From Pseudomonadota bacterium (GTDB taxonomy: Bacteria > Desulfobacterota > Binatia > Binatales > Binataceae), in assembly GCA_021323945.1 (NCBI GenBank), contig JAJPKA010000020.1:558001-622000 (forward strand): a stretch of DNA of 64,000 bases. The letters are read 5' to 3'. Below the pieces are notes generated by a model. That model was not told the DNA's origin and searched no databases. It saw only the letters and a program-made list of their open reading frames with translations. Position numbers and translations under genes: made by a program. Position 1 is the stretch's first letter; the number at the start of each line of letters is the position of its first letter. Of the stretch, positions 58,192 to 59,878 are shown in pieces.

Positions 58192-58974
58192 TCAGTGTCG
58201 GTCCACCGCGTAATAGCGTCGACCAACGGCATTCCAGTCGATACGTTCAAAGAAGGCCTTGACGCACTGCTCGCGCGTTGAGTAGTCAATTTGATAGGCC
58301 GCGGGGTAAACAGCACACACGAGCAGAGGATTCGAGCCCACCCACCCGCCGGCATCGTCGGCGCCCAACGGGACATTGTGCCAACGGTCATCATACGGAT
58401 CATAAATCAAAGCGACCCAAGCGTGCGCCACACGGGCGCAAGCCACGAAATCGTCGCGCCAGCTTTCGAAACTTCCCATATGCTCGCGGAGGTTGGCTAT
58501 TACATACTCTGACGGCGAGGTCTTATGAAGGGCCAGGTTTCCAAAATAGAACTCGTGCAGGAGCACACAATTCGCGGACGAGAGCTGAGTTTCCCTCAGT
58601 TTAGCGTAATGTGCCGCATTTTCTGGCGTTCGGGATGCGCCCTGCAGCGAAGTCTCGGCCGCTAGAAGCTGCGCGAACGCTTTCCGATAGGAGGCGTAAA
58701 TTGCGTCAATTTGAGGCTCGGAAAGAAAGCCGGGAATGGACCGGAAGGGTCGCGGCGCCAGCTTGCGAGGCTGAAAACCTGGTCTTCCTTTGAGAAGACC
58801 CTCGAATGGAAGGCCTGTTTCGCTCGGCGGCGGGATCGCACCGGCAGCTCGCTCTATCATGAGCGAGCCAATTGCCGAAGTGAGCCCCAACAGAAACCGA
58901 CGCCGATCGCGAATCGACGCAGGACACTGATGCCTCTCGCGTAATGTTCGGAAGCACTCAAAAGTCACGCGCAT
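58192..58974 (-). CDS. Tat-exported Fe/Mn superoxide dismutase-fold protein lacking most metal ligands
   Basis: A 260-residue protein. The N-terminus has a twin-arginine signal, RDRRRFLLGLTSAIGS (about residues 22-37), so export folded is likely. The remainder follows the SOD A fold: IDAIYASYRKAF where the first His ligand would be, LLHEFYFGNLAL with the second His kept, and WVALIYDP. Near the end, NPLLVCAVYPAAYQIDY occupies the place of LDVWEHAYY: Asp and the last His are both Ala. With only one of four ligands remaining, dismutase activity is improbable. It may be a structural or binding protein. Its gene is divergent from the selenoprotein, 55 bp apart. Confidence 0.82.
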   Translation of the reverse strand: MRVTFECFRTLRERHQCPASIRDRRRFLLGLTSAIGSLMIERAAGAIPPPSETGLPFEGLLKGRPGFQPRKLAPRPFRSIPGFLSEPQIDAIYASYRKAFAQLLAAETSLQGASRTPENAAHYAKLRETQLSSANCVLLHEFYFGNLALHKTSPSEYVIANLREHMGSFESWRDDFVACARVAHAWVALIYDPYDDRWHNVPLGADDAGGWVGSNPLLVCAVYPAAYQIDYSTREQCVKAFFERIDWNAVGRRYYAVDRH

Positions 58975-59029
58975 GCAGTGCAACCGTACACCTGCTATAT
59001 TGACCAATAAACCAACAAGGGCAAGAGAG

Positions 59030-59878
59030 ATGCCGGTTGAATATATTCCTCGTACGCGAGAACTTTATCGGAATTATCCTCCATATCGATGGGTGGTTAA
59101 CTCGGATGTACCACCGTGGACTCCGCTGCCCCGACCGATTTCGGAATGCAAGGTTGCATTAATCAGCTCTGGCGGCATTCTCTACCGCGACCAGCCGCGC
59201 TTCCATCGGGAGGATGCTTCTTATCGGCTTATTCCCAAAACTGCAACTCAGGCGGAATTGGATGTCTGGCATTTTGGCTACCCGACAAAGGATGCCAAAG
59301 CGGACCACAATTGCGTCTTTCCGCTGGCGCGAATGCGCGAGCTGGAAGCCGCGGGCGAAATCGGCGCATTGGCGGATCCGGCCTACAGCTTTATGGGAGG
59401 TATCTATTCAGCTCGCAAAGTGCGCGATGAATTGGCCCCGCGCCTCATCGAGGAACTCAAGCGAGCCAGGGTCGATGCGTTTTATCTAGTGCCGGCCTGA
59501 CCTGTCTGCCATCAGTCCGTTGGACTGATCGCACGTGCGGTTGAAGCGGCTGGAATTCCAACCTTATGCATGACTTCGGCGCTTGATATTACCCAGGCTG
59601 TCAATCCCCCGCGGGCCGTGTTCGTGAACTTTCCACTTGGCCATCAGACCGGAAAACCCAATCAGCCTGAGTTGCAACGCCAAATTGTGCGTGATGCGAT
59701 GACGGCCTTCGAGACAATCACGCGACCAGGCACAATCGTTCATCTCCCTTATGTTTGGGATTTGAACGACAATAGTTGGGAGCAGACCGACTATACCGAG
59801 GGCTTTCTGCCAGAGCGTCCACCCAAAGAAGAGGCGGATCGAGCGGAAGCGGAGCGGCGACTGCGTTTTTCACACTAA
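59030..59878 (+). CDS. Selenoprotein of the PrdB/GrdB (glycine/sarcosine/D-proline reductase component B) family
   Basis: This single gene is interrupted at codon 157 by an in-frame TGA (59498-59500), read here as selenocysteine. Both halves share one frame; the second starts with Pro-Val-Cys, giving Sec-Pro-Val-Cys-His-Gln-Ser, the UxxC redox motif of the PrdB/selenoprotein B family, then VGLIARAVEAAGIPT, TSALDITQAVNPPRAVFVNF and PLGHQTGKP. The N-terminal half has PYRWVVNSDVPPWTPL, ALISSGGILYRDQP and HREDASYRLIP. AAGGG and AGAGAG lie before ATG 59030. The full product is about 282 residues. No PrdA partner is near, so the reaction is unknown. Cys-containing homologues would support the alternative that the gene uses Cys; here the codon is TGA. 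Confidence 0.88.
59507..59533 (+). promoter_or_regulatory. Putative bacterial SECIS hairpin
   Basis: Just after the TGA, ATCAGTCC (59511-59518) and GGACTGAT (59522-59529) form a perfect 8 bp stem with loop GTT; TGC and GCA extend it by 3 bp past a C-C mismatch. The loop starts 19 bases from the TGA, in the range reported for bacterial SECIS elements recognised by SelB, and carries GU in the loop. Confidence 0.72.

Follow-up and report, generated by a model that had tools for sequence, protein, structure and literature searches.

The gene at positions 59030-59878 of the window, by which we mean the whole stretch of 64,000 nucleotides that was analysed, very probably encodes a selenoprotein that acts as a stand-alone PrdB-like thiol/selenol oxidoreductase. 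The gene is a fresh Binatia member of a family with known representatives in bacteria of the ocean and the soil. Standard annotation turns it into two meaningless ORFs (58973-59500 and 59570-59878 with table 11), which are split at an in-frame TGA.

59018-59026, forward strand: candidate ribosome-binding stretch ggcaagaga, 5' of the ATG at 59030 (read from the sequence)
59030-59878, forward strand: PrdB-like selenoprotein gene, 282 codons with Sec at codon 157 (translation; PF07355 and TIGR04483 profile scores)
59498-59500, forward strand: UGA read as selenocysteine (U157), in a UPVC motif with C160 (homologue codons)
59511-59529, forward strand: bacterial SECIS hairpin AUCAGUCC-GUU-GGACUGAU (fold; covariation in 33 sequences)

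The in-frame UGA and its decoding

The reading frame contains a single in-frame TGA at codon 157 and is otherwise open, and the relatives keep the start MPVEYIPRTRE of the protein. The window translation thus agrees with a preliminary description of this DNA in the coordinates, the open frame on both sides of the TGA, the codon number and the sequence U-P-V-C. The same description regarded the organism as competent for selenocysteine. All four components of the machinery are indeed present in the genome, namely tRNA-Sec (selC, 74 bits, anticodon UCA), selA (572 bits), selB (360 bits) and selD (379 bits), and all matches exceed the curated cut-offs. The selD gene of this genome encodes a selenoprotein too, as it contains an in-frame TGA in the motif AAGUAGK (L017 1501-2424, which is C1:158949-159872), and is likely truncated by standard annotation.

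An alignment with homologues, which had been suggested as a check, places Sec or Cys at codon 157. Of the 42 rows read, which include close and distant relatives on independent contigs, 40 show TGA here and correspond to about 39 distinct genes (L030 and L057 are one gene). The two rows with TGC (Cys) are alphaproteobacterial plasmid genes from Roseomonas (L051) and Haematobacter (L052). TGA is also found at the same codon in 11 of 11 relatives from other assemblies, which share 52-84% identity with the window protein, and the nearest named relative is a Candidatus Binataceae genome (L021). A phylum-wide search revealed matches in 71 of 297 genomes, and nearly all full-length matches hold exactly one internal TGA. 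The two parts of the gene that the TGA separates are under equal purifying selection (dN about 0.13 and 0.11-0.15, dS near saturation). The family is described as carrying Sec in a U-x-x-C motif, and the window protein conforms to this with U157-P-V-C160. A subclade of the relatives (L040, the second copy of L061, L062, L063 and L065) reads UPLD for UPVC, with Asp in place of the second Cys while Sec is kept. Therefore, a U-C selenenylsulfide or a resolving Cys is not universal among these proteins.

A bacterial SECIS element is defined by a G in a small apical loop (PMC1088965). Directly 3' of the UGA of the window gene, within 38-42 nt of the TGA, a hairpin is formed in the predicted fold, whose small apical loop starts 18 nt past the UGA with the conserved G as its first position. 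The eight pairs of the helix join columns 14-21 with columns 25-32 of an alignment of 33 sequences (column 1 is position 59498). Pairing is found in 96.6% of the cells, compared to 89.7% in column shuffles, which ignore the relatedness of the sequences, and 6-45% in slid controls, which preserve it. Since the stem sits in a conserved coding region, identity alone is no proof of it, whereas double changes are. Four of the eight pairs are altered on both sides, and 19 cells carry a double change versus 5.5 in the shuffles, including changes from U-A to C-G and from U-A to A-U.

Four mutually independent lines, namely the conserved TGA, the hairpin, the selection on both halves and the Sec machinery of the genome, provide strong computational evidence that the window protein is a true selenoprotein, in which UGA157 would be decoded as Sec by SelB and tRNA-Sec via the downstream hairpin, and nothing was found that speaks against Sec. 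An ordinary pseudogene or a sequencing error, with the TGA as a real stop and a decaying downstream part, would fit the two ORFs of the standard annotation but is refuted by the same TGA in all those distinct genes, by the covariation of the SECIS element and by the equal selection on both halves.

Relation to PrdB and GrdB

The protein had been called a normal member of the PrdB/GrdB family, which is correct for the GRDB superfamily but not for PrdB in the strict sense. Its match to PF07355 (GRDB) reaches 44.8 bits with a gathering cut-off of 22 and covers profile positions 213-344 of 347, which makes it a superfamily member. The best NCBIfam model is TIGR04483 (PrdB), for which the window protein scores 175.1 bits, below the cut-off of 300, while the control, a clostridial PrdB from Terrisporobacter that adjoins PrdA, scores 384.6 bits. 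For full-length GrdB (TIGR01917) it stays far too low with 59.3 versus 602.2 bits. In the tree, several deep forks of which are weakly supported, the clostridial PrdB proteins form a separate clade (100/100) apart from the clade of the window protein.

The alignment with clostridial PrdB spans positions 18-234 of the 238 positions of TIGR04483 with about 35-37% identity, and Sec and the Cys at +3 occupy the same positions. In contrast, the clostridial motif is UGTC instead of UPVC, and no PrdA was found in the window genome. The selenoprotein B of glycine, betaine and sarcosine reductase (GrdB/GrdH/GrdF) is homologous in the C-terminal half, with about 60 bits to several models; however, the window protein is about 150 residues shorter than these models of 431-435 positions, the N-terminal half is absent, and neither GrdA nor GrdE was found in the genome, the GrdA search having no valid positive control. 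The alphaproteobacterial proteins from Roseomonas and Haematobacter, which are annotated as "Glycine/sarcosine/betaine reductase selenoprotein B family protein", resemble the window protein as stand-alone proteins of similar length with the active-site context CP[VI]CHQ. They differ by Cys (TGC) in place of Sec, an identity of 34% and other neighbours. On a megaplasmid of Peptoclostridium acidaminophilum (L053 5001-5735) there is a Sec gene annotated as prdB, which has no PrdA in the stretch shown and possibly stands alone too.

We also looked for the partner subunits. A PrdA/GrdE-type pyruvoyl proprotein (PF09338) was not found in the genome, where the best match is 14.1 bits with a cut-off of 22.2, while a control plasmid gave 75.8 bits. 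This genome-wide search bears out the earlier statement that no PrdA partner is visible. The corresponding statement for GrdA agrees with the lack of any match to PF04723 in the genome, but is less secure, as no verified grdA genome served as control and the sole response of the profile was a sub-cut-off match in E. coli.

Judged by its sequence, the window protein has a common origin with PrdB and the same active-site Sec, yet is not a D-proline reductase, because the PrdB score is below the cut-off, the clostridial PrdB clade is separate and the PF09338 partner was not found. A true D-proline reductase PrdB was rejected on the score and the partner search. It is very unlikely that the protein is nevertheless a functional subunit of D-proline reductase (or of glycine, betaine or sarcosine reductase) with a pyruvoyl partner encoded elsewhere. 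Such a subunit would explain the shared superfamily and Sec position, but a true PrdB reaches 385 bits, the clostridial clade is fully supported, the partner search had a working positive control, and the genome is 95.5% complete, so that a partner could have been missed, but this is unlikely. As the Binatia genes lacking PrdA show, the family need not concern proline.

Gene neighbourhood and possible role

In the close relatives L020, L021, L022, L024, L025, L026 and L027 the PrdB-like gene lies between a glutathione S-transferase (GST) gene on its upstream side and a MAPEG gene on its downstream side. The GST gene of L020 is not adjacent but lies about 1.3 kb upstream, and L023 retains a GST remnant only. 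In most of the relatives with this order a thiol peroxidase gene and cobalamin genes come next. For example, in the Binatia relatives L022 (7121-9967) and L024-L027 the order GST, PrdB-like gene, MAPEG and thiol peroxidase is followed by BluB-like, CbiZ, CobD and CobS genes. Since synonymous differences between the window and these relatives approach saturation, the GST/MAPEG gene order may be selected. This neighbourhood in about eight close relatives, frequently joined by a thiol peroxidase, is possibly a new and testable lead.

The window copy itself adjoins neither GST nor MAPEG. No GST of its genome is close (35% identity at best), and a MAPEG search run without a positive control gave no match; the glutathione synthetase GshB is present (379 bits). 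Outside the closest relatives no conserved partner was seen in the neighbourhoods compared across distant relatives. The GST/MAPEG linkage is therefore clade-specific. A GST-like stretch in the same genome (L076, C11:215773-216435) matches with one TGA and one TAG and is probably a decayed gene. The product of the divergent neighbour in the window (58192-59007, reverse strand) combines a Tat-like leader, RRRFLLGL, with the C-terminal domain of Fe/Mn superoxide dismutases (PF02777); its scores are well below the NCBIfam SOD cut-offs, which points to an atypical SOD-like protein. SDR and LLM genes of the window were dropped as shared neighbours, as they belong to large paralogous families and are about 38% and 24-31% identical to the genes of the relatives. 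A link to omega-class (Cys) GSTs, which was prompted by omega GSTs among the top solved-structure matches, was also dropped because Ser-Pro (SPYA) occupies the usual active-site position in the GST of the relatives.

In the predicted fold (pLDDT 81.5, from an alignment of 11 sequences) a strand at 150-154 is followed by a helix at 158-173, so that U157 is placed by the model at the start of the helix after the central strand. Redox nucleophiles are usually found at this place. When solved structures were searched by sequence, nothing beyond chance matches to designed helical proteins came up. The fold comparison is uninformative on function, because its matches are common Rossmann or flavodoxin-like arrangements only (best Z 8.2; no Foldseek match at E <= 0.001).

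We propose a stand-alone selenol reductase that is regenerated by thiols and acts on what we infer to be electrophiles or thiol adducts. The selenolate of U157 would attack a small substrate that is electrophilic or bound to a thiol, C160 would resolve the Se-S intermediate, and the thiol pool of the cell (glutathione or thioredoxin) would regenerate the protein. As no pyruvoyl subunit is involved, the substrate would not undergo the activation known from D-proline reductase and glycine reductase. Quite possibly, though short of probable, the stand-alone protein is instead a redox sensor or a general peroxide or thiol-disulfide reductase outside any glutathione-linked detoxification. The isolated position of the window gene beside the SOD-like gene, the lack of fixed partners in most of the phylum and the thiol peroxidase adjoining in relatives are consistent with this, but not the GST and MAPEG neighbours, which the close relatives keep in spite of near-saturated dS. 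Those neighbours and the thiol-peroxidase gene favour a glutathione-linked role of the proposed selenol reductase. Detoxification or reductive de-conjugation, as suggested by the neighbours alone, is a tentative assignment. It is rather doubtful that the PrdB-like Sec enzyme, GST and MAPEG of the Binatia form a module which reductively cleaves an electrophile or a glutathione adduct without a pyruvoyl cofactor.

A family known from the surface ocean

The preliminary description had placed the protein outside the classical anaerobic Stickland context. That is supported by the missing PF09338 partner, but the idea is not new. In the Sargasso Sea study of 2005 PrdB with UXXC was the third most abundant among the known selenoprotein families with 42 genes (PMC1088965), and the GOS survey of 2008 listed 235 Sec and 110 Cys forms of PrdB (PMC2398784). 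Both surveys sampled the surface ocean, which already is a non-clostridial setting, and both contain Cys homologues. According to the survey descriptions, the window protein shares with this group the Pfam family PF07355, the UxxC motif, a SECIS element right after the UGA and an occurrence in oxic environments, and no difference between them is demonstrated on that basis. A substrate was not described in the literature found on PrdB-like selenoproteins. Nor was a GST/MAPEG neighbourhood of the PrdB family in the literature searched, where the combination of the family with MAPEG led to no more than an unrelated review.

Because standard annotation splits the gene, the PrdB-like protein goes unnoticed in soil Binatia despite its wide occurrence in them. 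In the surface-ocean surveys PrdB-like selenoproteins ranked with the most abundant selenoprotein families. If true, a GST/MAPEG detoxification module would mean new chemistry for the GrdB/PrdB superfamily.
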